A DNA stretch of 38,492 nucleotides, from the NCBI RefSeq assembly GCF_003788635.1, contig NZ_AYKH01000019.1, positions 1-38,492 on the forward strand, given 5' to 3'. The position numbers were made by a program, and so were the translations under genes. This document shows, piece after piece, positions 6,821 to 25,683 of this stretch (its first letter is position 1; each line of letters opens with the position of its first letter). This DNA comes from Salinisphaera orenii subsp. orenii MK-B5 (lineage in GTDB: Bacteria; Pseudomonadota; Gammaproteobacteria; Nevskiales; Salinisphaeraceae). The notes below the pieces were generated by a model. That model had not been told where the DNA came from. It saw only the letters and a list, made by a program, of their open reading frames with translations, and did not search any database.

Positions 6821-8164
6821 ATGACCGCGCCGGACGAATCCGTCACCGCCGCTTCCGCCGCGACCGCGACGCTGGCCCGGCCGCTGACGCTGCCCTGCGG
6901 CCAGGTCCTGCCCAATCGCATCGCCAAGGCGGCGATGACGGAAGGCCTGGCGGATGCCCGCATGAACGCCACGCCGGCGCACGAACGCCTCTACCGGCGC
7001 TGGTCGCACGGCGGCGCCGGTCTGCTGATCACCGGCAACGTCCAGATCGATCGCTGGGATCTCGAACGGCCGGGCAACGTCGTCATCGACGGCGCCGCGG
7101 ATCGTGCGGCGCTGGCGCGCTGGGCCAGCGCCGGCACGGCCGGTGGCAGTCAGATCTGGATGCAGCTCTCGCACGCGGGGCGGCAGGCGCCGTTCTACTG
7201 CTCGCCGACGCCGGTGGCGCCCTCGGCGCGGCGGCTGCGGCTCTTGGGCGCCTACCGCACGCCGAGCGAGCTGACCGTAGCGGGTATCGAACAGATCGTC
7301 GAACGCTTCGCGGCGGCGGCGCGTCTGGCATGGGAGACCGGTTTCACCGGCGTGCAGATCCACGCCGCGCACGGCTATCTGTTGAGCGAGTTCCTGTCGC
7401 CCGCGGTCAATCGCCGCCGCGACGACTACGGCGGTTCGCTGGCCAATCGCGCGCGCCTGCTGCTCGCGGTGGTGCGCGCAGTGCGTCGGGCGGTGGGCCC
7501 CGGTTTCGCCGTGGCCGTCAAGCTCAATTCCGCGGACTTCCAGAAGGGCGGTTTCGACGACGCCGACTGCGTGCAGGTAGTGCACTGGCTCAACGAGCTG
7601 GCCGTCGATCTGATCGAGATCTCCGGCGGCAGCTACGAACAGCCGCGCCTGCTCGGGCACGAGGGCGACGCCGATCGGGCCGAGGCGCCGCGTGCGAGCA
7701 CCCGGGCACGCGAGGCCTATTTTCTCGAGTATGCGGCGCGGGTCCGCCGGGCCGCGCGCATGCCGGTGATGGTGACCGGCGGTTTTCGCAGCCGGGACGC
7801 GATGGCCGCGGCGATCGACGAGGACGGGGTGGATGTGATCGGTCTCGGCCGGCCGCTGTGCGTGGACCCGTTCTTCGTCGCACGGCTTTTCGAGGGCACC
7901 ACCGAGGCCGCCGCCGATCCGGGGGCGGAACTCGCCTACGGCCGCGGCGTGCTCGGCCCGCGTTCGGGAATCACGGCACTACGCTTCATCAACATCTTCT
8001 CGCAGATGGGCTGGTACTACGTCCAGTTGTTCCGGCTCGGCCGCGGCGCCGAACCGCACTGGCGTCTGCCGCTCTGGCGCGGGCTGCTCGGCCACGTGGC
8101 CGCGGAACTGCGCAGCGCCCGGGTGATCCGCGCCTTCCAGAAACAGGCGGCGCAGCTGCGTTAG
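6821..8164 (+). CDS. Old Yellow Enzyme family NADH:flavin oxidoreductase
   Basis: A 447-residue flavoenzyme. The TIM-barrel OYE domain spans about 20-375: LPNRIAKAAMTEG near the N-terminus, QLSHAGRQ for the flavin region, the active-site signature VQIHAAHGYLLSEFLSP, then NRRRDDYGGSLANRARL, and MVTGGFRSR plus DVIGLGRPLCVDP for FMN phosphate binding. It should use FMN and NAD(P)H to reduce activated C=C bonds or related substrates. A C-terminal extension of about 70 residues (FINIFSQMGWYYVQLFRLG) is partly hydrophobic and may associate with the membrane; this is longer than classical OYEs. No operon partner is seen. The start is the first ATG of the conserved region. Confidence 0.88.
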   Translation: MTAPDESVTAASAATATLARPLTLPCGQVLPNRIAKAAMTEGLADARMNATPAHERLYRRWSHGGAGLLITGNVQIDRWDLERPGNVVIDGAADRAALARWASAGTAGGSQIWMQLSHAGRQAPFYCSPTPVAPSARRLRLLGAYRTPSELTVAGIEQIVERFAAAARLAWETGFTGVQIHAAHGYLLSEFLSPAVNRRRDDYGGSLANRARLLLAVVRAVRRAVGPGFAVAVKLNSADFQKGGFDDADCVQVVHWLNELAVDLIEISGGSYEQPRLLGHEGDADRAEAPRASTRAREAYFLEYAARVRRAARMPVMVTGGFRSRDAMAAAIDEDGVDVIGLGRPLCVDPFFVARLFEGTTEAAADPGAELAYGRGVLGPRSGITALRFINIFSQMGWYYVQLFRLGRGAEPHWRLPLWRGLLGHVAAELRSARVIRAFQKQAAQLR

Positions 8165-8456
8165 GGCCTTTCGACACGTCATGCAAGTCCGCGCTGGGCG
8201 CTACCTGAAAAGCGCCTATGGGCGGCAACATAAGGCGCCGTGCGCGTCGCACAGTCGTTCTTCGCCAGCGTGCGACAGCGCTGGATTGCCGCAAAAAAGC
8301 GCGCGTCCCTCCAGGTGGGGCCGCCCACGAACAATCGACCGGGGGCGCGCCGCGGCGTTGCCCGTCTGGATCGTGGCACGCGACGACGGGTGACTCGCGC
8401 CTTGCCGCACACGAAGTGCGGTCTCCAAGGCGGCGCTCGTGTGACGAGGCCTTAGT
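8161..8456 (+). repeat. MITE-like dispersed repeat, copy A
   Basis: About 290 bp that recurs in reverse orientation at 25382-25672. Over the 75 bp from ATGGGCGGCAAC (8218) the copies differ at 11 positions by eye, and a 36-bp stretch near the right end differs at one. That stretch holds a hairpin CCGCAC-ACGAA-GTGCGG (8405-8421), kept in both copies. The ends form an imperfect inverted repeat (TTAGGGCCTTTC... against ...GAGGCCTTAG), and the left end overlaps the stop codon of the oxidoreductase gene. No transposase is encoded. A non-autonomous mobile element or a structured extragenic repeat fits best. Confidence 0.7.
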
Positions 8457-8468
8457 ACAGTCGTCGCC

Positions 8469-8795
8469 TCAGGCGAAGATCGCCACGCCGAGCAGCACGA
8501 TGCCCGCGGCATTGATCAGGCCGTGGCCGGCGACCACCAGCCGGGGCGGGGCACGCTCGCGCCAGACGAGCCCGAACAGCACGGCGCCGGCGGCGAAGCC
8601 GATGGCCAGCAGGCCGAAGGCGGTCCATACCAGCGTCTGGCCGTGCATGAGCGCGCCGATCAACAGCACCAGAAGGCCGAGTCCGGCGATGCCGCCGTGG
8701 GCGGTGCGCACCGCCGGCGCGGCGACGTCGAGCACGGCCATGGCGAGGCCGCCGGTGGCGGCCACGAGCAGCAGCACGAATGCCAGCGCGAGCAT
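8469..8795 (-). CDS. Small integral membrane protein, unknown function
   Basis: A 108-residue, almost wholly hydrophobic protein with four predicted membrane helices (about 2-21, 37-51, 57-79 and 86-107). A His-Gly pair lies after helix 1, with others before helices 3 and 4. No catalytic or cofactor motif is recognised. It starts 2 bp after the stop of the BON lipoprotein gene, so both are probably co-transcribed. It ends just before the MITE-like repeat. Confidence 0.7.
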   Translation of the reverse strand: MLALAFVLLLVAATGGLAMAVLDVAAPAVRTAHGGIAGLGLLVLLIGALMHGQTLVWTAFGLLAIGFAAGAVLFGLVWRERAPPRLVVAGHGLINAAGIVLLGVAIFA

Positions 8796-8797
8796 GC

Positions 8798-9454
8798 CTA
8801 GCTCTTGCCGCCGTCGGAGCCGCCGCCGTTGCTGCCGCCGTTGCTGCCGCCGTTGCTGCCGCCGTTGCTGCCGCCGGAGCCGTCAGCATTCGAGCCGCCG
8901 TCGTTCGAATCGCCGCCGTCCGCCTTGCCCTCGGAGGATTTCTCAGAAGGCGCGGACTCGCTGTCGCGAACCTCCATCGAATCGACGACGTCCTTCACGC
9001 CGGGCTGTGATCGGGCGCTCTCCAGAGCCGCCTTGCGGGTCTCTTCGTCCGGCACGTTGCCGCCTAGCGTCACCACGCGATCGGTCACGCCGACGGAGAT
9101 CGCGGCCTCCTCGAACTGATCCTCGTCGAGCAGTTCACGCTGGATCTTGCGGAACAGCACTTCGTCGGTGACCGTCTTGTCGACCTTCTGCGACGCTTCG
9201 TCGACCTTCTGGCGCGCGGCCTGCAGCTCGGCCTCCGCCTCGTTCAGGTTCGAGCGCAGCTCGGCGAGCTCCTCCTTCTTGGCCTCCAGCGCCTCCTGTG
9301 CCTCGTTTCGGGCCTCGCGGGCCTCCTCCAGGTTCGTGGTGGCGTCCTCGTACTGTTCCTGCGGATCGGGCGAGCAGGCCGTGATCGCCGTGGCGGCGGC
9401 GATGAGCGCGGCGGCGAACGTCAGAGGGCGCGCGATGGACTGAATCGTGGGCAT
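8798..9454 (-). CDS. BON-domain lipoprotein with coiled coil and Ser-Asn-Gly-Gly tail
   Basis: A 218-residue lipoprotein. ATG 9454 follows AAGGAA. The signal peptide ends in ITAC (lipid Cys27). Residues 34-93 are a Glu/Lys/Ala coiled coil. Residues about 95-162 are a BON domain (VLFRKIQRELLDEDQF through VVTLGGNVPDEETRKAALE to GVKDVVDSMEV), of the OsmY kind that binds phospholipid or other envelope surfaces. Residues 163-218 are acidic and then low-complexity, with four SNGG repeats. It is likely a periplasmic or outer-membrane stress protein, which suits a halophile, but its partners are unknown. The next gene downstream encodes a small membrane protein. Confidence 0.82.
   Translation of the reverse strand: MPTIQSIARPLTFAAALIAAATAITACSPDPQEQYEDATTNLEEAREARNEAQEALEAKKEELAELRSNLNEAEAELQAARQKVDEASQKVDKTVTDEVLFRKIQRELLDEDQFEEAAISVGVTDRVVTLGGNVPDEETRKAALESARSQPGVKDVVDSMEVRDSESAPSEKSSEGKADGGDSNDGGSNADGSGGSNGGSNGGSNGGSNGGGSDGGKS
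8823..8870. repeat. Four perfect 12-bp tandem repeats within the BON lipoprotein gene
   Basis: The unit CCGCCGTTGCTG occurs four times without change and encodes Ser-Asn-Gly-Gly on the reverse strand. Identical DNA units suggest recent slippage, so copy number may vary among strains. Confidence 0.9.
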
Positions 9455-9995
9455 GGGGTTCCTTAACCGGGTCGTTGCTCGAAAAATAACACGTTTCCAC
9501 GCGCGTTCATCGGCGTGCGGCACGGGTCGGGCCCAGGCGGTGATACCCGCCGGCCGTCGCCGGTGTCGCGTCATGACATCGGCATGACGGACAGGCGGAC
9601 AGGGGCCGCGCCGATCGCTTCGACTGCGACGGCAGGCAGGCGCCGATGTCGCCACGCCGATCGGGCGCGCATCGCGAACAGCGCCGCTACGCATCGGGCA
9701 CGGCGCCGTCATGCCAATGCCGCGCCGGTGACCGCACATCGGGTCGGGATGCAGGGTGGCCGGCGTTGGCGCCACGATCGAGACCTGCACAACGACAGGG
9801 CACCCGTGGTGAATCGCGCATGGGCGGGCCAAGCGCTGGGGTCGTGCGCGTGACATGAACGAGGGGCGGCAGTCCCGTCTCGCCGCGGGCGGGCGCGATA
9901 GCGGCTGCGCGACGCGCTCGAGGTCTCGTCCTGCCGGACGACGGCGCCCGGCGCGGGCTCGCATGTCGCCTCGGCAGGCCCTAGAATCGCGCGCC
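9455..9995. other. Long divergent intergenic region, no gene seen
   Basis: 541 bp between the BON lipoprotein gene (reverse) and dusB (forward). It must hold both promoters. Frames here are Arg/His/Ala-rich without any family pattern. Apart from TAGAAT at 9982 I see no convincing operator, RNA or terminator. Confidence 0.5.
9982..9987 (+). promoter_or_regulatory. -10-like TAGAAT just before dusB
   Basis: The hexamer begins 14 bp before the ATG at 9996, leaving at most 2-3 nt of leader. No ribosome-binding site is present. Confidence 0.35.
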
Positions 9996-10982
9996 ATGGA
10001 AATCGCCGGCCACGCATTCGACAACGGACTCGCCTGCGCGCCGATGGCGGGCGTCACCGACCGCGTCTTCCGGAGTCTGTGCCGGAGTCTGGGCGCGACC
10101 GCGACCACGGCGGAAATGGTATCGGCCCGACCGGAACTGCGCGCCACCCGCAAGTCGCGCCTGCGGCTCGATTTCGGCGGCCAGCCGGCACCGCGCATCG
10201 TGCAGATCGCCGGCGGCGATGCCGCCGATCTGGCGCAGGCCGCGCGGGTCAATGCGGATGCCGGGGCCGACATCATCGACATCAACATGGGCTGTCCGGC
10301 GAAGAAGGTCTGCCGCAAGGCCGCGGGGTCGGCGCTGATGGCCGACGTCGATCATGTCGCGCGGATTCTCGACGCCGTGGTGGCCGCCAGCCCGGTTCCG
10401 GTCACGCTGAAGATGCGCACGGGCGTGAGCGCCGACCGGATCAACGCGGTAACCATCGCCCGCCGGGCACAGCGCGCCGGCATCGCCGCACTCGCGGTGC
10501 ACGGCCGTACGCGCGACCAGCACTATCGCGGTCGGGCGGAATACGCCACGATCGCCGCGGTCAAGGCCGCGGTCACGATTCCGGTCTGGGCCAACGGCGA
10601 CATCGATTCGCCGGCCGCGGCCGAAGCCGTGCTCGCGGCGACCGGCGCCGACGGGCTGATGATCGGCCGCGCGGCCTGCCGGCGACCCTGGCTGTTCCGC
10701 GAAATCGCGGTGGCGCGCGCGACCGGTCGGCCCGCGCCGCCGCTGTCGCTGGCCGACGAGCGCGAGATCGTGCTCGGGCTCGTCGAGCAGCTGCACGATT
10801 TCTACGGCGAGGACCAGGGCCTGCGGGTGGCGCGCAAGCACATCGGCTGGCTGTGCGAGCGCCGGCCGCCCCGGCCGGCGCTGTACATGGACCTGATGGC
10901 CGCGGCGAGCGGCGCGCGCCAGCTGCGGCTGCTGGCGCGCTACTTCGAGGCCGCGGCCGACATGCCGGCGGCCGCGGCCTGA
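9996..10982 (+). CDS. dusB: tRNA-dihydrouridine synthase DusB
   Basis: A 328-residue FMN enzyme that reduces specific uridines in tRNA to dihydrouridine with NADPH. The barrel begins ACAPMAGVTDRVFRSLC. It then has VQIAGGD, the catalytic loop DINMGCPAKKVCRKAAGSA (Cys100 the likely acid), TLKMRTG, VHGRTRDQHYRG and ANGDIDSP. The phosphate-binding GADGLMIGRAA and a C-terminal helical RNA-binding domain complete it. Length and motifs fit DusB rather than DusA or DusC. The ATG at 9996 starts exactly at the family's N-terminus. In many Gammaproteobacteria dusB is followed by fis; here the next gene is convergent and unrelated. Confidence 0.92.
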   Translation: MEIAGHAFDNGLACAPMAGVTDRVFRSLCRSLGATATTAEMVSARPELRATRKSRLRLDFGGQPAPRIVQIAGGDAADLAQAARVNADAGADIIDINMGCPAKKVCRKAAGSALMADVDHVARILDAVVAASPVPVTLKMRTGVSADRINAVTIARRAQRAGIAALAVHGRTRDQHYRGRAEYATIAAVKAAVTIPVWANGDIDSPAAAEAVLAATGADGLMIGRAACRRPWLFREIAVARATGRPAPPLSLADEREIVLGLVEQLHDFYGEDQGLRVARKHIGWLCERRPPRPALYMDLMAAASGARQLRLLARYFEAAADMPAAAA

Positions 10983-10997
10983 CGCCCGCTCAGGCCG
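10975..10997. repeat. Inverted repeat joining the ends of dusB and the Yip1 gene
   Basis: CGGCCTGA (10975-10982) and TCAGGCCG (10990-10997) form an 8-bp stem with a 7-nt loop. Each arm includes the stop codon of one of the two convergent genes. No T-tract follows, so termination strength is uncertain. Confidence 0.45.
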
Positions 10998-11541
10998 CCG
11001 GTGCCGGCGTGGGGCCGCCCATGCCGAAGCCGGCGGCGCTGCCGATCAGGGCGATGATGAGCAGCTGCACGACCCAGCCGATCACACAGACCCCCACGGC
11101 CCGCCAGGTGCTCTTGTAGTCCAGCGCCTGGCGCACGGCGACCACGGTGGTCGCGAGCATCCAGACCGCGACGACCAGCATCACCAGCGGCCCGATCAGC
11201 GGGATGAAGGCGAACACGCGCAGCACGCCCGGTGCGGCGGCGAAGCCCAGCGTGCGCAGGAGCTGGCCGATGTCGGCCTCGGTCTGGGCCTCCGGCAGCA
11301 GCTTGGTGCCCACGGCCCAGATGATGGCGGCCCAGATCACCCAGCCGAGCAGGGCGGCGAGGCCGGTGAGCAGCAGTGCGGCGATCCCGCCCTGGGCCAT
11401 GGCGCCCACGCCCGCGGCCAGCGCGCTGAGGGCGACGACGCCGGCGGCCTGGCCGGTCGCGGACTTGTCGTGCTCGACCTCCTCGTAGGTCGGTACATCC
11501 AGGCGCGCGGCGCCCAGCATCCGTTGGAAAAAGCTCTGCAT
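10990..11541 (-). CDS. Yip1-family integral membrane protein
   Basis: A 183-residue protein. ATG 11541 has CAGGAG upstream. A short cytoplasmic N-terminus (MQSFFQRMLGAARLDVPTYEE) is followed by about five membrane helices. The segment LLRTLGFAAAPGVLRVFAFIPLIGP is typical of bacterial Yip1-domain proteins, as are TYEEVEHD near the N-terminus and an ALDYKSTWRAV loop near the C-terminus. Function in bacteria is not established; some relatives affect membrane organisation. The gene stands alone, converging on dusB. Confidence 0.75.
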   Translation of the reverse strand: MQSFFQRMLGAARLDVPTYEEVEHDKSATGQAAGVVALSALAAGVGAMAQGGIAALLLTGLAALLGWVIWAAIIWAVGTKLLPEAQTEADIGQLLRTLGFAAAPGVLRVFAFIPLIGPLVMLVVAVWMLATTVVAVRQALDYKSTWRAVGVCVIGWVVQLLIIALIGSAAGFGMGGPTPAPAA

Positions 11542-11663
11542 GGCCGGTGGCTCCTGTGGTGGTTCGGCAACGGCGCCGAGCGTGACGCAACTCGGCCCCG
11601 CTGGCCAATCCGGCCGCCTGCGGATTGCGCCGCATCGGGGTCGCACTTACGCTAGCCTCACCT

Positions 11664-11669
11664 TATACC
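11664..11669 (+). promoter_or_regulatory. -10-like TATACC, leaderless start
   Basis: The hexamer begins 13 bp before the GTG at 11677, with no ribosome-binding site between. It implies a message starting at or one base before the start codon. Confidence 0.35.
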
Positions 11670-11676
11670 GTCGCCG

Positions 11677-12588
11677 GTGATCGTTCTGCGCGCGCTACTG
11701 CTGATCAATCGTGAATCCCGACAGGGTGAGGCCAACGCCCAGGCCGCGCTCGACGTGCTCGGGGATCTGGACGTGGACGTCGTGCTGGGGCGTTTCGAGC
11801 AACCCGACGACGCGCCCGCGGAGATCGACGCCCATGCGGCCGAGGTGGATGTGATCGTGCTTGGCGGCGGCGACGGCACCATCAACCTCGCCTCGGCGGC
11901 GGTCATGCGCGCCGGGCGGCCGATGGCGGTGCTGCCCCTGGGCACGGCCAACGACTTCGCGCGCACGCTGCTGATTCCCACGGTGCTCGAGGCGGCCTGT
12001 CGTAACGTCGTCGAGGGCGTGAGCCATCGGGTGGATCTGGGCCAGTGCAACGACGTGTACTTCGTCAACGTGGCCAGCATCGGCCTGGCGGTGCGCGCCT
12101 GCGAGTATCGCTCCGACGCGGCGAAGAAATGGTTCGGCTCCTTCGGCTACGCCTCCAACGTGTTCTCGGCCTACCGCGACACCGAACCGTTCGACGCCGA
12201 GATCCGGCGCGGCGACGAGGTGCATCGCCTGCGCTCCATCCAGATCGCTATCGGCAACGGCCGCTATTTCGGCGGCGGACTGGCGGTCTCCAGCGACGCC
12301 GCCTTGGATGACGGTCGGCTCGATCTCTACAGCCTGGAGCCGGCCTCGTTCGGCCAGCTCGTCGGCATGCTGCCGTCGCTGGTGCGCGGCCCGGACAAGT
12401 ACGTCCAGGGCGTGCAGATGTTCGAGGGCACGACCTTCCACGTCGACACCGGCCGGCCGATGCCGATCAACACCGACGGCGAGCTGCTCACCGAGACGCC
12501 GGCGACCTTCCGGGTGCTCCCGCGCGCGCTGGAGGTGAAGGTGCCGCGCGAATACATCGAGCGCTACGGCCGCGACGACGCCGCCTGA
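11677..12588 (+). CDS. YegS/diacylglycerol-kinase family lipid kinase
   Basis: A 303-residue cytoplasmic lipid kinase. The DAGK catalytic fold shows GGGDGTINLAS (63-73) for nucleotide binding, LPLGTANDFAR (86-96) and AIGNGRYFGGGL, followed by the second beta-sandwich domain ending in INTDGE. It should transfer phosphate from ATP to a lipid such as diacylglycerol or phosphatidylglycerol. The start is GTG at 11677. The stop overlaps the ATG of the next gene (TGATG), so it is translationally coupled to a CoA-transferase-like protein. Length is normal for the family. Confidence 0.88.
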   Translation: MIVLRALLLINRESRQGEANAQAALDVLGDLDVDVVLGRFEQPDDAPAEIDAHAAEVDVIVLGGGDGTINLASAAVMRAGRPMAVLPLGTANDFARTLLIPTVLEAACRNVVEGVSHRVDLGQCNDVYFVNVASIGLAVRACEYRSDAAKKWFGSFGYASNVFSAYRDTEPFDAEIRRGDEVHRLRSIQIAIGNGRYFGGGLAVSSDAALDDGRLDLYSLEPASFGQLVGMLPSLVRGPDKYVQGVQMFEGTTFHVDTGRPMPINTDGELLTETPATFRVLPRALEVKVPREYIERYGRDDAA

Positions 12589-14822
12589 TGCACGGCGGCG
12601 GTCCGGACAGCGTCATGGCCGAGCGACCGCAGCGATTCAGCGACCCGGAGGCCGTCATCGACTGGCTGCTGGCCACCGTCGGCCGTGACCTGCGGGTGGG
12701 CGCGCCGCTCGGGCTGGGCAAGGCGGCGACGCTGATGAACGCGCTCTACGCCCGGGCGAAGGCCGATCCGGGCATCCGCCTGACCTTCATCACCGCGCTC
12801 TCGCTGGACGTGCCGCAGGCCGACGGCGAGCTCGAGCGGCGGCTGATGGCGCCGATCGTGGAGCGCGTGTTCGAGGACTATCCGGGGCTGGCCTATCTGC
12901 GCGATCTCCGGGCCGGCCGCCTGCCGGCCAACGTCACCGTCTCGGAGTTCTTCTTCCAGCCCGGGGCGTTGCTCGGCAACGGCCACGCCCAGCGCCACTA
13001 TCGTTCGGTCAACTACACCCACGTGGCGCGCGACCTGATGGACGCCGGCGTCAATGTGCTCATGCAGATGGTGGCGCCGGGGCGCCATGCCGGCGAGTTC
13101 TCGCTGTCCTCCAACACCGACGTCACGCTCGATCTGCTGCCGGCGATCGAGTCGGCGCGGGCCCGGGGCGAGCCGCCGGTCGTGGTCGCCCAGCTCAACG
13201 CGCGCATGCCGACGATGACCCGCAGCGCGCTCGTGGACGCGACCCTGGCCGACGCCCTGTTCGCGGGCGATGCCGCCGATTTCAAGCCGTTCGGCGCCCC
13301 GGCCGCGCCGGTGGCCGAGGCCGACTACGCGATCGCCCTGCGGGTGAGCACGCTGCTGGCCGATGGCGGCACCCTGCAGATCGGCATCGGCTCGCTGTCG
13401 GACGCCATCGCCCATGTCTGCGATTTGCGCCAGAATCACAACGCCCGCTATCACGACGTCATCGCCGCGATGCATCGCGGCCCCGCCGAGCGCGGCCTGA
13501 GCGCGGCGATCGGCGGCCTCGCGCCGTTCGTGCGCGGGCTGTATGGCTGCACCGAGATGCTGGTCGAGGCCTATCTCCAGCTCCACCGCGCGGGCGTGAT
13601 CCGGCGCCCGGTCTACGACGACATCGCGCTGCAGACCGCGATCGACGCCGGCGAGATCGGCGAGCGGGTGACGCCGGCGACGCTGACCGCCCTGCGCGAA
13701 CGCGGCGCGATACCCGCCGTCCTGGCGGTTTCGGACGTGGCCTATCTCCAGCGCTTCGGCGTGTTTCACGAGCGCGTCACGCTCCATGGCCGCGCGCTCG
13801 ACGCCGGCGACGACGGACCGCCGATCGCCGCGGATCTGGACGACGCCGGCGCCCGGGCGGCGATCGAATCGCGCTGTCTGGGCGAGCGGCTCGCGGGGGC
13901 GACGCTGGTCCACGGCGGTTTCTTCCTCGGCCCGAGTCGTTTCTATCAGGCCCTGCACGCGCTGGATGACGAGACCCGCGACCTGTTCCACATGACCAGC
14001 GTGGGCCGGATCAATCAGCTCTACGGCGACGAGGCCCTGCGGCGGGTCCAGCGGCGCGGCGCGCGCTTCGTGAACACCGGGATCAAGGTCACCCTCGGCG
14101 GGGCGGTGGCCTCCGACGGCCTCGCCGACGGCCAGGTGCTCTCCGGGGTGGGCGGGCAGTACAACTTCGTTGCCCAGGCCCACGAACTCGAGGGCGGGCG
14201 CTCGATCATCTGCGTGCGCGCGGTACGGGCCGGGTCCGACGGGCCGGAATCGAACATCGTCGCCCACTACGCCCACACCACGATACCGCGCCATCTGCGC
14301 GACATCGTGGTCACGGAATACGGGGTCGCCGATCTGCGCGGCCGCACCGACGAGCAGGTCGCCATTGCCCTGATCGAGATCGCGGACGCCCGTTTCCAGG
14401 AGCCGCTGCGCCGCGCCGCCGTGAAGGCCGGCAAGCTGACGCCCGACTACCGTGTGCCCGCCCGGGCGCGGGACAACACGCCCGCGGCCATCGGCCGAAC
14501 GCTGGCGGGCCACAAGGCCGAAGGCCGGTTCCCGGCCTATCCCTACGGCAGCGATTTCACCGAGATCGAGCGCACGCTCACCGGGGCGTTGAAAGGGCTG
14601 CGCGGCGGTTTTTCGACGCGCCGGCTGCTGCGGCTGGCGCGCCATGCCCGGCGGCTGACCCGGCTGCCCGCCGCGGCGCGCCCGTATCTGGCGCGTATGG
14701 AGCTGGCGGCGCCGCGCGGCTGGCGCGAGGCGCTCTACGCGCGGCTGGTCGTGCTGGCGCTGCTCGACGCCGGGGCGATCACGGCCGAGGCGGACGAAGG
14801 GCGCTCGCGGAACGAGGCCTGA
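12588..14822 (+). CDS. Long acetyl-CoA hydrolase/transferase family protein
   Basis: A 744-residue protein. The N-terminal half has CoA-transferase features (LRVGAPLGLGKAATLMNALY, VNYTHVARDLMDAG, LADGGTLQIGIGSLSDAI). The later part (about 520-640) is the acetyl-CoA hydrolase/transferase C-terminal domain, with GVGGQYNFVAQAHELEGGRSI, a SNIV segment and VVTEYGVADLRGRTDEQ. Typical members are about 500 residues, so roughly 200 are extra, partly between these halves (about 370-510) and partly in a basic C-terminal tail. It probably transfers CoA between acyl groups or hydrolyses an acyl-CoA; the substrate is unknown. The ATG overlaps the lipid kinase stop by one base, which suggests a shared pathway. 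A second in-frame ATG lies nine codons in. Confidence 0.82.
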   Translation: MHGGGPDSVMAERPQRFSDPEAVIDWLLATVGRDLRVGAPLGLGKAATLMNALYARAKADPGIRLTFITALSLDVPQADGELERRLMAPIVERVFEDYPGLAYLRDLRAGRLPANVTVSEFFFQPGALLGNGHAQRHYRSVNYTHVARDLMDAGVNVLMQMVAPGRHAGEFSLSSNTDVTLDLLPAIESARARGEPPVVVAQLNARMPTMTRSALVDATLADALFAGDAADFKPFGAPAAPVAEADYAIALRVSTLLADGGTLQIGIGSLSDAIAHVCDLRQNHNARYHDVIAAMHRGPAERGLSAAIGGLAPFVRGLYGCTEMLVEAYLQLHRAGVIRRPVYDDIALQTAIDAGEIGERVTPATLTALRERGAIPAVLAVSDVAYLQRFGVFHERVTLHGRALDAGDDGPPIAADLDDAGARAAIESRCLGERLAGATLVHGGFFLGPSRFYQALHALDDETRDLFHMTSVGRINQLYGDEALRRVQRRGARFVNTGIKVTLGGAVASDGLADGQVLSGVGGQYNFVAQAHELEGGRSIICVRAVRAGSDGPESNIVAHYAHTTIPRHLRDIVVTEYGVADLRGRTDEQVAIALIEIADARFQEPLRRAAVKAGKLTPDYRVPARARDNTPAAIGRTLAGHKAEGRFPAYPYGSDFTEIERTLTGALKGLRGGFSTRRLLRLARHARRLTRLPAAARPYLARMELAAPRGWREALYARLVVLALLDAGAITAEADEGRSRNEA

Positions 14823-14832
14823 GACCCGGCCG

Positions 14833-18127: not shown

Positions 18128-18153
18128 AAAATCTTCCGCTGGTGAAACAATCC

Positions 18154-18184
18154 ACAAAAAAAGCCGCGGCGAATGCCGCGGCTT
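18154..18184 (-). terminator. Intrinsic terminator of the betaine-synthesis operon
   Basis: Read on the reverse strand, an 11-bp stem (AAAGCCGCGGC / GCCGCGGCTTT) with an ATTC loop runs into a T-tract (CTTTTTTTGTGG). It lies about 70 bp past the SDMT stop and just before the SDR gene. Confidence 0.88.
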
Positions 18185-18252
18185 TCGATGCTGCAACGAA
18201 CAGCTGGCCGATGGGTCGGGCGGACCCGAGCCCGACCGCCACGGCCGCGTGG

Positions 18253-19089: not shown

Positions 19090-19101
19090 TTCGCTGTCCT
19101 C

Positions 19102-19962
19102 CTATTCCTTGTCAGCGTCCCGGTCTTCATCGGCCTCGCGGTAGGACTTCTCCGCCACGTGGATGAAGAAATCGGGCTCGTCTTCCTTGAAGCTGCTCTG
19201 GAAGTCGCCGTAGGTGGTCACCGCCTGGAAGCCGACCTGGTGCATCAGATCATGCACGTAGTTCTTGCGCAGCGGGAACATGTTGAGGTGATAGACCTCG
19301 TCGCCCGGGAACTCGTAGCGGAACCGCGCGAGACCCTCGTCGACGTGCTCGGGCGAGGCCGAGACGTTCTCGCCGCAGTAGTAGTACTTGTGCCCCGGCT
19401 TGGACTTGCCGTCGAGCAGCGCGTCGTAGTTGCGCTGGTCGAGGATCAGAATGCCGTCGTGATTGAGCATCGAGTAGAACTCGGCGAGCGTGCGCCGGCG
19501 GTCGTGCTCGTTGAAGATGTGCGTGAAGGAGTTGCCGAGACACACGATGGCGTCGTAGCGGCCCACCAGGTCCCGCGACAGCCAGCGCCAGTCCGCGTGG
19601 ACGGTCGACAGGATCATGCCGTGCTGGCGCGCGTTCTCGAACGCCTTGGCTAGCATCTGCGGGCTGCCGTCGACGCTGGCGACTTCAAAGCCGGCCTTGA
19701 GCAGCTGCACCGAATGGAAACCCGTACCGGCTGCTGCATCGATGACCGATTCGCAGCCGTACTTCTTCAGAATGTCGACGAAGAAGCTGCCTTCGCTTTT
19801 GGCGCGGCCTTCCCAGTCGATGAGTTCGTCCCAGCGCTCGACAAAGTCGTAGACGTACTCGTGCTGGTAGTGGTCGGTCTCGCGAACCTCGGTGGGGTCG
19901 CCGCCGAAATCCTGTTGCTTCTGAAAGACCGGATCCTTTTCAGCGGAGCTATCCATAGGCAT
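19102..19962 (-). CDS. Glycine/sarcosine N-methyltransferase
   Basis: A 286-residue SAM-dependent enzyme that methylates glycine to sarcosine and on to dimethylglycine, the substrate of the next gene's product. Motif I is VIDAAAGTGFHSVQLLKAGF, followed by ASVDGSPQML, HADWRWL, DAIVCLGNSFTHIF and ILILDQRNYDALLDG; FHSVQ and WRWL with GNSFTH are typical of bacterial GSMT. ATG 19962 is spaced well from GGGAGAG; a second ATG at 19956 is further away. The C-terminus is strongly acidic (EADEDRDADKE). It is the first gene of the pair, facing the DNA ligase gene across a 282-bp control region. Confidence 0.94.
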   Translation of the reverse strand: MPMDSSAEKDPVFQKQQDFGGDPTEVRETDHYQHEYVYDFVERWDELIDWEGRAKSEGSFFVDILKKYGCESVIDAAAGTGFHSVQLLKAGFEVASVDGSPQMLAKAFENARQHGMILSTVHADWRWLSRDLVGRYDAIVCLGNSFTHIFNEHDRRRTLAEFYSMLNHDGILILDQRNYDALLDGKSKPGHKYYYCGENVSASPEHVDEGLARFRYEFPGDEVYHLNMFPLRKNYVHDLMHQVGFQAVTTYGDFQSSFKEDEPDFFIHVAEKSYREADEDRDADKE

Positions 19963-20006
19963 TACTCTCCCTCGATACGCCGGCACGGAGATTCCGCGGG
20001 GCGCAC

Positions 20007-20057
20007 TGATTCATGCAAGTGAGTCATTACCGTATGAAGGCTGGTACGGGACTGCAA
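20007..20057 (-). promoter_or_regulatory. Candidate promoter and operator of the betaine-synthesis operon
   Basis: On the reverse strand TTGCAG (20057-20052) and TACGGT (20034-20029) are 17 bp apart and could be -35 and -10. Immediately downstream, at the expected start, TGACTCA-N6-TGAATCA (20026-20007) is an interrupted repeat of two near-identical palindromic heptamers. This placement would suit an osmotic repressor, but no regulator is known here. Confidence 0.35.
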
Positions 20058-20211
20058 TCGCCATAGCGCTAACATCGCGCCGTGCGGACGCCATATGGGG
20101 GCGATTTCGGATGCGGGCCATTCAGCGTGTAACGCCGATGAGTACTGCGCTAGCGGCCGATCGGGCCGGCGCTATCACGGCGTCAGAAAAAATTCATCCA
20201 TTCGGATCGAC

Positions 20212-20232
20212 GATTCGCGCGATTCGCGCGAA
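20212..20232. repeat. Tandem GATTCGCGC with TTCGCGCGAA palindrome before the ligase gene
   Basis: GATTCGCGC occurs twice in a row (20212-20229), and the second copy runs into the perfect palindrome TTCGCGCGAA (20223-20232). It lies 13 bp before the ligase ATG and could be an operator. Confidence 0.4.
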
Positions 20233-20244
20233 ACCTGCGCCCTG

Positions 20245-21885
20245 ATGCGCGCTTTCACCCGTCTCTACACCCGGCTGGACGCCACCACGGCGACCAACGA
20301 CAAGGTCGCGGCCATGCGCGACTACTTCGCGAGCGCGCCGCCGGCCGACGCGGCGTGGGCGGTGTCGTTCCTGTGCGGACGGCGCATCAAGCGCCTCATC
20401 CCGACCGCGCGCCTGCGCGAATGGGTCGCCGAGGCGGCCGACATGCCGCTCTGGCTGGTCGAGGAGAGCTATGCCGCGGTCGGCGATCTGGCCGAGACCG
20501 TGACCCTGCTGCTCGACGCCCAGGCGGTCACGCCCGGCGAGTCCGGGTTGGACGTCGCCCTCCACGACTGGGTCGAGCAGCGGATCCTGCCGCTGCGCTC
20601 GATGAGCGAGGCCCGGCGCCGCGAGGCGGTCACGGGCTACTGGCGCGAACTGCCACTGGAGGCGCGCTTCGTGCTCAACAAGCTGCTCACCGGCGCGTTC
20701 CGCGTGGGCGTGTCGCGCCGACTCGTCACGCGGGCGCTGGCCGAGACCGCCGACATCGAGCCCGCGCGCATCGCCCATCGGCTGATGGGCCGCTGGGAAC
20801 CCACGCCGGCTTTCTTCGAGCGGCTGCTCGATCCGGCCGACCGCGGCGAGGACGCGGCCCAGCCGTATCCGTTCTTCCTCGCCTCGCCCATCGAGAACGC
20901 GCCGGTCGCGCGCGTGGCCGATCTCGGCGCGCGCGACGACTGGCTCGTGGAATGGAAATGGGACGGCATCCGCGCCCAGCTCATCCGGCGCGGCGGCGAA
21001 TGCCATATCTGGTCGCGCGGCGAGGATCTCATGGCCGGCCGCTTTCCGGAGCTGGAGGCCGCCGCCCAGCCGCTGGCCGACGGTTCGGTGCTCGACGGCG
21101 AGATCCTGGCCTGGGCCGCGGGCGAGCCGCGGCCGCTGCCCTTCGCGCGCCTGCAGCGGCGCATCGGTCGGCTCAAGCCGTCGGCGAAGATGCAGGCGGC
21201 GCATCCGGTGCGTTTTCTCGCCTACGATTTGCTCGAGCACGCCGGCCACGACATTCGCGAGTGCGCCATCGAGACCCGGCGCGCGCGGCTGGCCGAGGTG
21301 CTGGCGGAAAGCGACGCGCGGATCGCGCTGTCGGCTCCCGTGACCGCCGAAAGCTGGGACGATCTCGCGGCGTTGCGTGCGCGTTCGCGGGAGTTCGCCA
21401 CCGAAGGATTCATTCTCAAGCGAGCCGGCTCGCCCTACCGGGTCGGCCGGGTGCGCGGCGACTGGTGGAAATGGAAGGTCGATCCGTTCAGCGTCGACGC
21501 CGTGCTCCTCTACGCCCAGCCCGGCCACGGACGGCGCTCGAATCTGCTGACCGACTATACTTTCGGCGTCTGGGACGGCGACGCGCTCGTGCCCTTCGCC
21601 AAGGCCTATTCGGGGCTCACCGACAGCGAGATCGGCCAGCTGGATCACTGGATCCGCCGGCACACCATCGACCGTTTCGGGCCGGTACGGGCGGTCGAGA
21701 GCGCCCACGTCTTCGAATTGCACTTCGAGGGCATTCAGGCGTCCAAGCGACACAAGTCGGGCATCGCCGTGCGCTTCCCGCGGATCGCGCGGTGGCGCCA
21801 CGACAAACCCGTAGCCGAGGCGGACCGGCTGGCCGACGTGAAGGCGCTGCTGCCCGCCGAAGACAGGACAGAGGTCGACGCATGA
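20245..21885 (+). CDS. ATP-dependent DNA ligase of the Lhr/PdeM-associated type
   Basis: A 546-residue ligase. Residues 1-200 are the helical DNA-binding domain (begins MRAFTRLYTRLDATTATNDK). The adenylation domain has motif I EWKWDGIRAQLI with nucleotidyl Lys238, then WSRGEDLM, LDGEILAW, FLAYDLLEHAG and EGFILKRAGSPYRVGRVRG. An OB-fold domain contains WWKWKVDPFSVDAVLLYAQPGHG and a late EIGQLDHWI. It seals DNA nicks using ATP, in addition to the cell's NAD-dependent ligase. This form is characteristically encoded with an Lhr-type helicase and PdeM, as here. The chosen start matches the family; longer upstream reading would cross the promoter region. Its stop overlaps the next gene (ATGA). Confidence 0.93.
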   Translation: MRAFTRLYTRLDATTATNDKVAAMRDYFASAPPADAAWAVSFLCGRRIKRLIPTARLREWVAEAADMPLWLVEESYAAVGDLAETVTLLLDAQAVTPGESGLDVALHDWVEQRILPLRSMSEARRREAVTGYWRELPLEARFVLNKLLTGAFRVGVSRRLVTRALAETADIEPARIAHRLMGRWEPTPAFFERLLDPADRGEDAAQPYPFFLASPIENAPVARVADLGARDDWLVEWKWDGIRAQLIRRGGECHIWSRGEDLMAGRFPELEAAAQPLADGSVLDGEILAWAAGEPRPLPFARLQRRIGRLKPSAKMQAAHPVRFLAYDLLEHAGHDIRECAIETRRARLAEVLAESDARIALSAPVTAESWDDLAALRARSREFATEGFILKRAGSPYRVGRVRGDWWKWKVDPFSVDAVLLYAQPGHGRRSNLLTDYTFGVWDGDALVPFAKAYSGLTDSEIGQLDHWIRRHTIDRFGPVRAVESAHVFELHFEGIQASKRHKSGIAVRFPRIARWRHDKPVAEADRLADVKALLPAEDRTEVDA

Positions 21886-22184
21886 CATCCGACAGCCCAT
21901 CTCAGACCACGGACCGACGCCATATCCGCTGGCAGGACATGACCTGGCGGGACTACCTGCGGGTGGGCCTCGGCGTGGTCATGTTCATTCTGGGCATCCT
22001 CGGGCTCGTCCTGCCGGTGCTCCAGGGCGTGCTGTTCCTGATCATCTCGGCGATCCTGCTGGCGCCGTATTCGCGCTGGGTGCAGAAACAGCTCGACCGC
22101 GGCGAGGCGCGTTTCCCGTGGGTTGCGGCCAGGGCCCGCAGCATCACCCAGCGCTGGAGCCGCAAAGCCCGCTCGGATGAGTGA
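21882..22184 (+). CDS. Small PGPGW-like membrane protein inside the ligase-helicase operon
   Basis: A 100-residue protein. A charged N-terminus (1-28, with WQDMTWRDYLR) leads to a hydrophobic block (about 29-61) that reads GVVMFILGILGLVLPVLQGVLF and then LIISAILLAPYSRW. A basic C-terminal tail follows. The hairpin of two helices around LPVLQG resembles the PGPGW transmembrane family. It begins in the ligase's stop (ATGA) and ends 8 bp inside the helicase gene, so it is tightly embedded. Function is unknown; a membrane tether or an unrelated passenger are both possible. Confidence 0.75.
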   Translation: MTSDSPSQTTDRRHIRWQDMTWRDYLRVGLGVVMFILGILGLVLPVLQGVLFLIISAILLAPYSRWVQKQLDRGEARFPWVAARARSITQRWSRKARSDE

Positions 22185-24666
22185 CGGCGGCGGGCGGCCG
22201 GCGCCGGAGACGGCGCATGCCGTCGATGCGCGCATCGAGGGCTGGTTCGCCGACCGCGGCTGGCAGATCTTCGATTTCCAGCGCGAAACCTGGGCCGCCT
22301 GCGCGGCCGGCGAGTCGGGGCTGATTCACGCGCCGACCGGCACCGGCAAGACGTTGGCGGCGTGGTTCGCGGCCGTGGGCGACTGGCTGAATCGGGCCGA
22401 GGACGACGGCATCACGCCCGGTCTGACCGTGCTCTGGATCACGCCGTTGCGGGCGCTGGCCGCCGACACCACCGCCCATCTGGCGGCCAGCGCCGCCGAA
22501 CTCGGCCTCAACTGGACGGTGGAGCGGCGCACCGGTGACACCGCATCGAGCGTGAAGGCGCGTCAGCGCCGGCGCCTGCCGAGCGCGCTGGTGACCACGC
22601 CGGAGAGTCTGGCGTTGCTGCTGTCCTACGCCGAGCACGAGCGCCTGTTCGCGAGCCTCGATGTGGTCGTGGTCGACGAGTGGCACGAACTGCTGTCGAC
22701 CAAGCGCGGCGTGGCGCTGGAGCTGTGCCTGGCGCGTCTGCGGGCGCTGCGGCCGGGCCTGCGCACCTGGGGGCTGTCGGCCACGCTGGCCAACCTCGAG
22801 CAGGCCAGAGACGCCCTGACCGGGGGCGCGCCGGGGCGGCTGGTGCGCGGCATGACGCCGGCGGCCACCCATATCGACGCGCTGGTGCCGGAGACCATCG
22901 AGCGTTTTCCCTGGGCCGGCCATCTCGGTACACGGCTGGTCCAGCCGGTCATCGAGGCGCTCGAGGCCGCCGAAAGCACGCTGCTGTTCACCAACACCCG
23001 CGCCCAGGCCGAGCTCTGGCACCAGGCGATCCTGCGCGCCCGGCCGGACTGGCTGGCCCGGGTGGCGCTGCACCACGGCTCGCTGGACCGGGCGTTGCGC
23101 GAGCGCGTGGAGGCGATGATCGCCGACGGGCAGCTGGCCTGCGTGGTCGCCACCAGCAGCCTCGATCTGGGTGTGGATTTCTCGCCGGTGGATCAGGTCA
23201 TCCAGATCGGCAGCCCCAAGGGTGTCGCCCGGCTGCTCCAGCGAGCGGGGCGTTCCGGCCACCGGCCGGGCGTGGCCAGCCGCATCCTGTGCGTGCCCAC
23301 CCACGCCTTCGAGCTGGTCGAGATCGCCGCGGCCCGGCGCAAGGCGCTCGCCGGCGAGATCGAGGCGCGGGAGCCGCTGACCGGCGCGCTGGACGTGCTC
23401 GCGCAGCACATCGTCACGCGCGCGCTCGGCAGCAGCGCCCGCGGCGGGGTGTCGGAGCAGGCGCTTCACGCCGAGGTCACCGCCACGCTGGCCTATCGCG
23501 ACCTCGGTGACGCGGCGTGGCAGTGGACGCTGGATTTCGTCACCCGCGGCGGCACGGCGCTGTCGGCCTATCCCGAGTTCCGCCGGGTCGACCGGGTCGA
23601 CGGACGGCTGACGGTGGGTGATCGCCGTATCGCCCGGCGTCATCGCATGACCATGGGCACGATCACCTCGGACGCGGCCATGAGCGTGAAGTGGCTCAAG
23701 GGCGGGCGCATCGGTACGGTCGAGGAGCGTTTCATCGCCCAGCTCACGCCGGGAGACGTGTTTCTGTTCTCCGGCCGGCTGCTGGAGCTCGTCCGGGTGC
23801 GCGAGCTGACCGCCTACGTGCGCGCCGCCAGGCGGCGAAAGCGCCATGTGCCGCGCTGGGCCGGCGGCCGGCTGGCGATTTCGGGCACCCTGGCCGACGC
23901 CATCCGCGGGCTGATCGAGCAGGCCCGTGACGGCGACTATCGCGAGCCGGAGCTCGCCGCGATTCGCGGCCTGCTCGAGGTCCAGCGGCAGTGGTCGGCC
24001 CTGCCGGGGGCCGATGAACTGCTGGTCGAGCACGTGACCAGCCGCGAGGGCCGGCACTGGTTCTTCTATCCCTTCGCCGGGCGGCTGGCCCACGAGGGGC
24101 TGTCCGCGCTGGTGGCGTGGCGGCTGGCGCGCATGCACGCCGCCACGTTCCGTTTCTCGGTCAACGACTACGGTTTCGAGCTGGTCACCCGCAGCCGGGT
24201 CGAGTTCTCGGCCGCCGAGCTGCGCGCCGCGCTGTCGAGCGAGAATCTGATCGACGATCTGCTGGCCTGTCTCAACGCCGCCGAGCTGTCCAAGCGCGCC
24301 TTCCGGGACATCGCCCGCATCGCCGGCCTGGTGTTTCCCGGCTACCCCGGCAGCCACAAGAGCGCGCGCCAGGTGCAGGCCTCCAGCGGGCTCGTCTACG
24401 ACGTGCTCGCCCGCTACGATGCCGACAATCTGCTGCTCGATCAGGCGCGCCGCGAAGTGCTCGAACGCGAGCTGGAGCTGGGACGCCTGCGCGGCGCGCT
24501 CGATCGCATCGACGGTCAGTCGTTGCGGCTGGTCTCGCCGCGGCGGCTCACGCCGATGGGTTTTCCGCTCTGGGTCGAACGGGTCGCCAGCCAGGTCAGC
24601 AACGAATCCTGGCGCGATCGCGTCGAACGCATGACCGTGCAATTGGAAAAGGCCGCCGATCGTTGA
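22177..24666 (+). CDS. Ligase-associated Lhr-type DEXH helicase
   Basis: An 829-residue superfamily 2 helicase. Motif Q-like FDFQRETWAA; Walker A APTGTGKT (52-59); Ia WITPLRAL; DEWH (167-170); SATLANLEQA; domain 2 LLFTNTRAQAELW; SSLDLGVDFSPVDQVIQIGSPK; and QRAGRSGHRPG. The C-terminal half has the Lhr winged-helix and beta-barrel parts, with MTMGTITSDAAM, GRHWFFYPFAGRLAHEG and FPGYPGSHKSARQVQASSGL. Lhr core enzymes unwind 3'-tailed DNA and RNA:DNA hybrids and act in DNA repair. The ATG at 22177 overlaps the membrane protein gene by 8 bp, and the stop overlaps the TTG of pdeM, so all four are coupled. Confidence 0.93.
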   Translation: MSDGGGRPAPETAHAVDARIEGWFADRGWQIFDFQRETWAACAAGESGLIHAPTGTGKTLAAWFAAVGDWLNRAEDDGITPGLTVLWITPLRALAADTTAHLAASAAELGLNWTVERRTGDTASSVKARQRRRLPSALVTTPESLALLLSYAEHERLFASLDVVVVDEWHELLSTKRGVALELCLARLRALRPGLRTWGLSATLANLEQARDALTGGAPGRLVRGMTPAATHIDALVPETIERFPWAGHLGTRLVQPVIEALEAAESTLLFTNTRAQAELWHQAILRARPDWLARVALHHGSLDRALRERVEAMIADGQLACVVATSSLDLGVDFSPVDQVIQIGSPKGVARLLQRAGRSGHRPGVASRILCVPTHAFELVEIAAARRKALAGEIEAREPLTGALDVLAQHIVTRALGSSARGGVSEQALHAEVTATLAYRDLGDAAWQWTLDFVTRGGTALSAYPEFRRVDRVDGRLTVGDRRIARRHRMTMGTITSDAAMSVKWLKGGRIGTVEERFIAQLTPGDVFLFSGRLLELVRVRELTAYVRAARRRKRHVPRWAGGRLAISGTLADAIRGLIEQARDGDYREPELAAIRGLLEVQRQWSALPGADELLVEHVTSREGRHWFFYPFAGRLAHEGLSALVAWRLARMHAATFRFSVNDYGFELVTRSRVEFSAAELRAALSSENLIDDLLACLNAAELSKRAFRDIARIAGLVFPGYPGSHKSARQVQASSGLVYDVLARYDADNLLLDQARREVLERELELGRLRGALDRIDGQSLRLVSPRRLTPMGFPLWVERVASQVSNESWRDRVERMTVQLEKAADR

Positions 24667-25355
24667 CCCTCGCCCGCGCCGAAGCCGCCGAGCCCGAGCA
24701 TGCCGCGCTGGACATTGCCGGCGAGCGGCTGATCCTGCGCGCGGATCGCAGCGTGTACTGGCCGCGGACGGCGACGCTGTTCGTCGCCGACACCCACTTC
24801 GGCAAGGCCGGGGTGTTCCGGCGCCACGGCATGGGCCTGCCGCAGGGCACGACCGATGCCGATCTGGCCCGTCTGGGGGCGGCGATCGCGGCCACGGAGG
24901 CGTCGCGGGTGGTCGTGCTGGGCGATTTCGTGCACGCGCCGCCGGCCGCGGACGAACCCTGGCTGGCCCGCTTCGCCGCGTGGCGGGCCGGTCATGCCGG
25001 CGTCGACTTCCGCGTGCTGCGGGGCAACCACGATCGCATGGACGCCGTGCCGGCGGCCTTCGATGTGGACTGGCAGGCCGGCGCTCGGCTGGAGGCGCCG
25101 TTCGTGTGTCGGCACGAGCCGGCGCACGACCCGCGCGGCCCGGTGCTGGCGGGGCACCTGCATCCGGTCGTGGTCCTGCGTGACGGCGGCGAGCGCCTGC
25201 GCCTGCCGGCGTTCTGGGCGCATGCCGAGGGCCTGGTGCTGCCCGCGTTCTCGAGCTTCGCCGGCGGTGCGGCGGTGACGCCGGCCGCCGGCGACCGGCT
25301 GTTCGTGATCGGCGGCGACCGGGTGATCGAGGTCGCCACCGGCGCCGACCGCTGA
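24663..25355 (+). CDS. pdeM: Ligase-associated metallophosphoesterase PdeM
   Basis: A 230-residue calcineurin-type phosphoesterase. Metal ligands are in ADTHFGK, VVLGDFVHA, LRGNHDRMD and AGHLHPVV. FRRHGMGLPQGTTDADL and the C-terminal AFWAHAEGLVLPAFSSFAGG are typical of the branch linked to Lhr helicase and ATP-dependent ligase. It probably processes DNA or RNA ends before ligation; some relatives have broad phosphodiesterase activity. The only fitting start is TTG at 24663, whose last two bases share the helicase stop (TTGA). It is the last gene before repeat copy B. Confidence 0.88.
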   Translation: MTLARAEAAEPEHAALDIAGERLILRADRSVYWPRTATLFVADTHFGKAGVFRRHGMGLPQGTTDADLARLGAAIAATEASRVVVLGDFVHAPPAADEPWLARFAAWRAGHAGVDFRVLRGNHDRMDAVPAAFDVDWQAGARLEAPFVCRHEPAHDPRGPVLAGHLHPVVVLRDGGERLRLPAFWAHAEGLVLPAFSSFAGGAAVTPAAGDRLFVIGGDRVIEVATGADR

Positions 25356-25381
25356 GCTGCGCCCTCGCTGTCCCCAGCGCC

Positions 25382-25672
25382 TGTTAACACCTCATACGAG
25401 CGCCGTGCTGGAGACCGCACATCGTGTGCGGCAAGGCGCGAGTCGCCGATCGTGGCGAGCCACGCTCAAGACCTTGAACGCCGCAGCGCGCCCGCGGTCG
25501 TCTCATGGGCGGCCCAACCCGAAGGGCCAGGCGCCCCCATGAAACGGCCAGGATGCGGCAATCCAATGTTGTTGCACGCTGGCGCAGAACGACTGCGCGG
25601 CGCGCACGACGCTTGGTGTTGCCGCCCATGGCCGCTTTTCCGGAAGCGCGGGGGCGCGGCCTTGCATGAAGC
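25382..25672 (-). repeat. MITE-like dispersed repeat, copy B
   Basis: Reverse-oriented relative of the element at 8161-8456. The matching core around GGGCGGCAAC on the reverse strand starts at 25629, and the conserved hairpin CCGCAC-N5-GTGCGG is at 25415-25431. The ends, TTAACACCTCATACGAG on one side and the reverse complement of CCAACGCTTCATGCAAG on the other, form an imperfect terminal inverted repeat. A middle segment of some 40 bp differs between copies. It fills the gap between pdeM and the convergent lipoprotein gene. Confidence 0.7.
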
Positions 25673-25683
25673 GTTGGCCGATC

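Follow-up and report, generated by a model that had tools for sequence, protein, structure and literature searches.

Two related repeats of about 290 bp lie in opposite orientation in a 38,492-nucleotide stretch of Salinisphaera orenii subsp. orenii MK-B5 (contig NZ_AYKH01000019.1, positions 1 to 38,492; hereafter the window), each between two genes that point toward each other, and this raises the question of whether they are mobile DNA that comes to rest at gene ends or structured RNA that is kept there by selection. The original prediction, made from the letters of the window, had combined both ideas, describing a mobile element whose hairpin CCGCAC-N5-GTGCGG was selected as a terminator or transcript stabiliser. 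The contig that makes up the window, C19, belongs to a 3.67-Mb genome (G000), for which a sister genome (G003) was available. From the evidence set out below, we read the two repeats, A and B, as copies of a non-autonomous mobile element resembling a miniature inverted-repeat transposable element (MITE), which would be targeted to CTAG, restore the stop codons into which it inserts, decay after insertion and belong to a larger superfamily of folded elements, a reading to which we assign a probability of roughly 0.8.

A dispersed family with CTAG-type ends

When A and B are aligned as inverted copies, two stretches match, one of 109 nt (83%) and one of 96 nt (84%), as expected for two related repeats in opposite orientation. 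The 11 differences previously counted in a 75-bp core proved exact, and this best ungapped stretch lies far beyond chance, the same measure giving 34–41 mismatches in 20 base-shuffled pairs. The proposal of a genome-wide family was likewise borne out, with the correction that the window holds a third copy, C, which had been missed. A genome search with A, in which 40 of the 100 initial candidates were scored, gave 45 matching pieces. A profile search of the fetched loci gave 53 pieces at 60 bits or more; as two of these come from a single copy split in half, the total is at least 52 copies. No gene was predicted inside 52 of the 53 pieces. The starts of five contigs, 400 kb together, contain 11 elements at 25 bits or more, which extrapolates to about 100 per genome. 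Full elements measure 250–310 bp and occur in a long form of about 290 bp, to which A and B belong, and a short form of about 255 bp (L018, L028, L035); in a consensus of 35 copies, read by eye, 27-bp terminal inverted repeats (TIR) start with CTAGGGCCTGTTAACACTTCATGCGA. A dispersed multicopy family of less than 500 bp, with TIR and without a transposase gene, has the character of a MITE, while REP and REPIN sequences, palindromic units of 20–40 bp found singly or in inverted pairs, were ruled out by the 250–310 bp length of full elements with TIR and TA ends. Most copies in the genome are only 70–87% alike.

A search of the genome and its relatives with one copy, which had been suggested as a check, returned further copies outside S. 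orenii MK-B5 as well. Matches were present in all 14 genomes of the genus, 2 to 42 in each, with at most 40 candidates scored per genome. Across the order, where up to 8 candidates were scored per genome, the same query matched 18 of 85 genomes, including 4 of the 71 outside the genus, and an exact 25-base core pattern had its sole named match in S. halophila YIM 95161.

The dispersed copies, together with empty sites in relatives, agree with the mobility originally proposed. At site A, G003 has the orthologous copy, whereas G011, G013 and G008 show an empty site; site B is empty in G008 and holds about 1.4 kb of other DNA in G011. Joined-flank searches covered 7 of 9 sites filled only in G003, sought in G000, and 9 of 20 sites filled only in G000, sought in G003. 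A base-by-base check of seven candidate sites yielded three empty sites with a single clean CTAG (L200/L238, L018/L249, L035/L248), the filled counterparts of which have CTAG at both ends, so that the target duplication and empty sites expected of a MITE were seen cleanly at three of seven. Of 55 distinct end pairs, 45 have G immediately inside the left TA. In the 31 left ends of the form NTAG, the outer base varies (C, 20; T, 6; G, 3; A, 2) and is often unlike that of the right end. With a variable outer base and an inner base that is mostly G, the end bases favour duplication of TA in a CTAG-like target. The preference for a TA within CTAG is a trait of the IS630/Tc1-mariner group. Insertion would occur at a CTAG-like target with duplication of TA or, less likely, of all four bases, as judged from the end statistics, and a DDE transposase of the IS630/Tc1-mariner type, to which both TA and CTAG point, would presumably move the element in trans. 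A parent transposase and target duplications were also to be looked for according to the original prediction; CTAG-type ends and the three clean empty sites were obtained for the latter, and for the former the search described below, covering the transposase loci of the genus, found none.

Stop codons and convergent gene ends

The statistics on placement cover 838 kb with 31 elements at 25 bits or more, fragments included, 23 of them full-length, and 748 genes predicted with our own gene finder. Outside elements, CTAG was observed 264 times, compared with 833 expected from trinucleotides or 2464 from composition, and 100 of these 264 sites are in-frame stop codons. A stop codon adjoins 18 of the 23 full-length elements and is TAG in 17 of the 18, an enrichment (p = 7e-9) over the 213 of 748 predicted genes that end in TAG. 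At both A and B, the element boundary is itself the stop codon of one neighbour. When 41 other loci were tested with one element per locus, an open-reading frame of at least 80 codons ended on the boundary TAG in 16 of 41 elements, compared with 14 of 352 YTAG sites in these loci, a trend weaker than that in the genome; without Salinisphaera the figure was 14 of 38. This concentration of the CTAG target at stop codons would explain the location of elements at gene ends and, in large part, at convergent junctions. With CTAG depleted and more than a third of the remaining sites being stops, many insertions would land on a stop codon, where the TA duplication, followed by the G with which the element begins, would rebuild TAG and leave the protein unchanged.

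The convergent junctions first described at A and B were recovered with a simple gene finder, and they belong to a broader excess. The 31 elements lie at 18 convergent, 12 tandem and 1 divergent junctions, whereas all adjacent gene pairs comprise 105 convergent, 534 tandem and 109 divergent. The convergent share of 18/31 exceeds both the 24% of intergenic bases found between convergent genes (p = 4e-5) and the share expected from gene 3′ ends (p = 3e-4). For the set of 53 pieces, a third gene finder placed 28 as convergent, 20 as tandem, 4 as divergent and 1 as unknown, two earlier and poor gene finders having given 12 and 27 convergent. Among 10 annotated plasmid regions, whose gene tables are incomplete, five have genes on both sides of the element, three of them convergent (one with distant genes) and two tandem. 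Insertions in genes, operons and promoter regions would presumably be lost, and the extra convergent excess probably reflects this loss of harmful insertions. A Tail-repeat-Tail bias, named the ‘least worst’ location, is described for repeats of Pseudomonas fluorescens by Silby et al. (PMC2718517). Together, CTAG targeting and stop restoration provide a testable rule for how a compact genome may come to hold about 100 copies of an element.

A folded core across the Pseudomonadota and competing readings

In G036, a genome from another family of the order, the same core was found behind two different kinds of terminal repeat. The G036 loci that carry this two-arm core with differing ends are L104, L105, L106 and L107, and they suggest a core that changes its ends or its transposase. 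When the core served as query in 369 genomes of the class, with up to 2 candidates scored in each, 32 genomes from 26 of 271 genera gave a match; three of the 32 are Salinisphaera.

Folding was assessed in an alignment (A2) of 21 elements, none from Salinisphaera, made up of 17 of 21 TIR pairs and L104, L105, L111 and L112; L127, L133, L134 and L139, which are truncated or carry inserts, and the near-duplicates L106, L107 and L113 were left out. The resulting fold has 89 pairs in ten helices, which form a terminal stem, two arms and, between the arms, a small CCC-loop-GGG hairpin whose loop is often TTCG or TCCG, of the UNCG type. Pairing holds in 94.8% of cells, a share that falls to 34–42% with slid partners and to 75% with shuffled ones. 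Changes on both sides affect 350 cells, compared with 34–65 in the slid controls. Such both-sided changes occur in 69 of the 89 pairs and in none of those in the small linker hairpin. The terminal repeats are paired in 96% of cells in these 21 elements from other genomes, and in the inner half of the terminal stem the sequence is almost free while complementarity is kept. Counts of G.T and A.C pairs (7 and 11 in 525 cells of the terminal stem; 52 and 12, and 30 and 13, in the arms) are close to symmetrical in the terminal stem and asymmetrical in the arms, and point neither to DNA nor to RNA as the folded form. Within Salinisphaera, RNAalifold gave 24 pairs for 33 copies, seven of them changed on both sides compared with 3–5 in slid controls, and these copies alone do not prove the fold.

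A covariance model (R1) was built from the 21 elements and is thus free of Salinisphaera sequence; it recovers five short-form copies of that genus at full length with 153–186 bits, and most full-length copies match on both strands because the element is palindromic. On the window, R1 matches B with 36 bits and A in pieces with 23 bits at best, and these low and broken matches indicate decay of both, which are old copies of the long form. In 800 kb of the genome, R1 gave 25 matches at 16 places, all of them among 28 elements found with the profile, and no false match was seen. Matches were obtained in 113 of 398 Pseudomonadota genomes and 59 of 213 genera, some outside the class, with up to 4 candidates scored in each and E-values that are rough. 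Most of 35 matches inspected have TAG-type ends and the core motifs; some have altered ends, and L347, L348 and L349 have a shortened arm. In other genera the length is mostly 263–268 bp between TIR ends. Copies also reside on plasmids and chromids, the named hosts of plasmid records being Pseudomonas, Azotobacter, Halomonas, Pseudoalteromonas, Catenovulum, Vibrio and Variovorax. No annotated feature lies beneath any of the plasmid matches listed, several of these records being almost unannotated. A plasmid search with the elements L343 and L028 as queries returned no match, as did two queries of phage records and one query of E. coli. Rfam 15 at its gathering score gave no match in the window, and with five loci from other genera a single match, below the threshold, was obtained (E 0.34).

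Several features of individual elements were recorded alongside the fold. The element is similar to its own reverse complement, as though a single ancestral unit had given rise to both arms in inverted orientation. Among Salinisphaera copies the linker is either CCCTTCGGG or CCCGAAGGG, a loop inversion that looks as if it arose by flipping during replication. A solo arm was found in L284 at 1208–1307 (G000 C44, about 41208–41307), with 62 bits over model positions 33–132 and no second arm in the match. One arm of many Salinisphaera copies has GACTC, a GANTC site, within GGCGACTCGCGCC, in a place where such a site is described for CIR (see below); this is probably chance, since CcrM is alphaproteobacterial.

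These results place the conserved structure at the level of a superfamily and in helices other than the hairpin named originally. For active copies, the fold is probably a requirement of movement or maintenance. As a tentative extension, somewhat less likely to be right than wrong, an uncatalogued superfamily of the Pseudomonadota would inherit a three-helix fold more faithfully than its sequence, as one folded cargo adopted by several transposases, and would reside largely in stop codons that it rebuilds. A fold that is kept over long times while resident copies decay separates the conservation of structure from function in the host, and annotation of many genomes could benefit from the search model.

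Elements of the IS200/IS605 type, REPIN and integron cassettes move by way of a folded single strand, and the conservation of the fold across the phylum allows the same to be proposed here, with the fold as the substrate and the TA ends as a by-product. On this reading, the inner half of the terminal stem, variable yet complementary and with few G.T pairs, would be kept paired at the DNA level. We consider this route unlikely, as TIR combined with a duplicated target are in keeping with a DDE transposase, HUH elements are not normally known to duplicate their target, and palindrome-templated repair could keep the arms complementary without selection or function.

Several observations weigh against a CTAG-targeted element moved by an IS630-type transposase. 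Among 17 PF13340 (IS5/IS427 type) and 14 PF13358 (IS630 type) loci in the 14 genomes of the genus, none has a pair of element ends, although at one locus, L101 (G010), a truncated copy lies beside a PF13340 transposase gene; and in a further set of fetched loci the only long TIR pair, L061, spans 533 bp, too short for a transposase gene. Three other empty sites (L203, L229, L015) lack a clean CTAG and L029 gave no clear reading, while the clean empty sites fit duplication of TA and of CTAG equally well. The TTAG at both ends of A suits a four-base duplication better, although its G003 orthologue has CTAG on the left. In A and B the TIR are decayed, their ends pairing at only 14/30 and 11/30 positions ungapped. 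Finally, between orthologues, paired positions change less than unpaired ones (2.7% compared with 4.7%, p = 0.003), as scored on the weak 24-pair Salinisphaera structure, which hints at constraint.

Other observations on transposases and ends were made in the same searches. In L101, positions 1736–1809 cover the first 77 profile positions, about 90 bp from the PF13340 match, and then break off, perhaps as a copy into which another insertion has gone. G009 carries five IS630-type transposase genes with equal scores (L305, L310, L313, L315, L317); the two compared, L305 and L310, are identical over 1114 bp and have ends unrelated to the element. In viral contigs, the exact TIR pattern occurred at six loci, three with a MITE-sized pair and three with one end only, and the core pattern gave no match.

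The slower change at paired positions is what would be expected if the element were a functional RNA at gene ends, acting under selection as a bidirectional terminator or a stabiliser of convergent transcripts, and it is joined by the excess at convergent junctions, the strong predicted folding (z of −2.9 for A and −4.8 for B), the covariation in the superfamily and the surplus of G.T over A.C in the arms, which is expected if one strand folds as RNA. Orthologous copies, however, diverge twice as fast as their surroundings: in 30 orthologous pairs, 406 of 8120 element bases differ (5.0%) with 117 indel columns, compared with 334 of 13477 bases (2.5%) and 34 indel columns in the mostly coding flanks. 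Inserted copies would on this evidence decay under little or no detectable constraint. The stem of the hairpin is unchanged between A and B, with a loop that differs by one base (ACGAA and ACGAT), as had been noted, but in the family it is perfect in only 8 of 35 full copies, with about six rows mislocated by the motif finder, and selection on it is not supported. Four short-form copies have a different partner for its 3′ arm, which is complementary at 10–11 of 11 positions to a stretch that begins some 65 bases upstream of the CGCCTTGC motif. Nor is a terminator or stabiliser role supported, since elements show no strand bias relative to the abutting gene (11 sense, 9 antisense), and a scan for terminators, which covered the surroundings of A alone, detected 1 site compared with 0.4 in shuffles and thus no strong terminator. 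The boundary TAG would be left without an explanation. A functional RNA of this kind is thus improbable, and slightly more so than transfer as a folded single strand.

A further reading, in which the copies are relics of a transposon that today neither functions nor moves anywhere and are alike between genera through old vertical descent, is very improbable, for although the lack of a transposase at the genus loci searched and the low likeness of most copies in the genome would suit such decay, close sister genomes differ in the presence of copies, length in other genera falls mostly within 263–268 bp, and copies occur on plasmids and chromids.

Copies in the window and relation to known systems

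The features of the window are collected in the table. The ends first given for A and B needed small corrections, which put the left TA of A at 8162–8163. Likewise, the elements were said to fill the whole gap between their neighbours, which is nearly so: all but about 16 bp at A and about 21 bp at B is occupied. At the low-coordinate end, B is decayed, reading GCTG where CTAG is expected. Copy C sits between divergent genes at 8798–9454 (−) and 9996–10982 (+).

Features of the window related to elements A, B and C (positions within the 38,492 nucleotides)
Feature	Position	Strand	Details and basis
Element A, long-form copy	8164..8452	+	289 bp between its TA dinucleotides; nhmmer 242 bits; family alignment
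A left TAG stop codon (gene 6821-8164)	8162..8164	+	Overlaps left TA and first element base; sequence, gene finder
A right-end TA	8453..8454	.	Sequence
Element B, long-form copy	~25377..25684	-	nhmmer 253 bits; sequence
B-side TAG stop codon (gene 25684-26427)	25684..25686	-	Overlaps TA at B high-coordinate end (25685-25686)
Element C, third and more diverged copy	9708..9982	-	nhmmer 70 bits; CTAG at 9981-9984
A hairpin CCGCAC-ACGAA-GTGCGG	8405..8421	+	Sequence
B hairpin CCGCAC-ACGAT-GTGCGG	25415..25431	-	Sequence
A left neighbour, FMN oxidoreductase family (PF00724)	6821..8164	+	Gene finder, Pfam
A right neighbour, no Pfam match	8469..8795	-	Gene finder, Pfam
B left neighbour, metallophosphoesterase-like (PF00149)	24663..25355	+	Gene finder, Pfam
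B right neighbour, DUF2057 (PF09829)	25684..26427	-	Gene finder, Pfam

Repeats with a 12-bp period were seen at two other places in the window. A tandem array at 38147–38492 reaches the end of the contig, which may be broken by it, and 12-bp repeats at 8805–8900, in the 3′ end of the BON-domain gene 8798–9454 (−), are probably a low-complexity protein tail.

Among known systems, IS630 of Shigella sonnei reportedly prefers the TA in 5′-CTAG-3′, according to Tenzen and co-workers, a target preference shared by the element described here. IS630 is an autonomous insertion sequence, in contrast, and among 14 PF13358 loci in Salinisphaera no pair of element ends was found. Duplication of TA on insertion is described for the IS630 family (PMC2170065). 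RUP of Streptococcus pneumoniae, with its partner IS630-Spn1, is likewise small and intergenic, with TIR and terminal TA, and has been proposed to move in trans by an IS630-type transposase (PMC2229807). It differs in its length of 107 bp, its 9-bp TIR and its known partner (PMC2229807), whereas the element here has 250–310 bp, a 27-bp consensus TIR, two internal arms and no partner found at the genus loci searched.

CIR, the CcrM-associated intergenic repeats of Caulobacter, also assigned to Brucella, is likewise intergenic, with two inverted-repeat arms and a linker, terminal TA and a fold conserved in alphaproteobacteria (PMC2229807), and two arms joined by a linker are present in the superfamily fold. 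No TIR is listed for CIR in the available portion of its description, however, and a GANTC methylation site is placed at its terminal loop (PMC2229807), whereas five elements from outside the class contain 0, 0, 0, 0 and 1 GANTC. R200 of Pseudomonas fluorescens, 320 bp long with 47 copies in SBW25, belongs to a set of repeats with the Tail-repeat-Tail bias (PMC2718517), and superfamily members occur on plasmids of Pseudomonas and Azotobacter. For R200, the available portion of the account tabulates no inverted repeats and does not mention stop-codon targeting (PMC2718517). R200 may nevertheless be a member of the superfamily, R200 and CIR having been compared by description only. ERIC, Correia/NEMIS and other bacterial MITEs share with the element a short, palindromic, intergenic and TA-flanked form without a transposase gene (PMC2229807, PMC10969869), but measure about 100–200 bp, and no comparable phylum-wide fold is described for them in the portions of these sources available (PMC2229807, PMC10969869).

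The literature searched, in which subscription papers are thinly covered, gave no account of the element family by sequence or name, an article on Thiomargarita MITEs (PMC4853749) having no bearing on it, and the superfamily is apparently uncatalogued. By kind, the element is a MITE, and it works like RUP or other TA-flanked elements.

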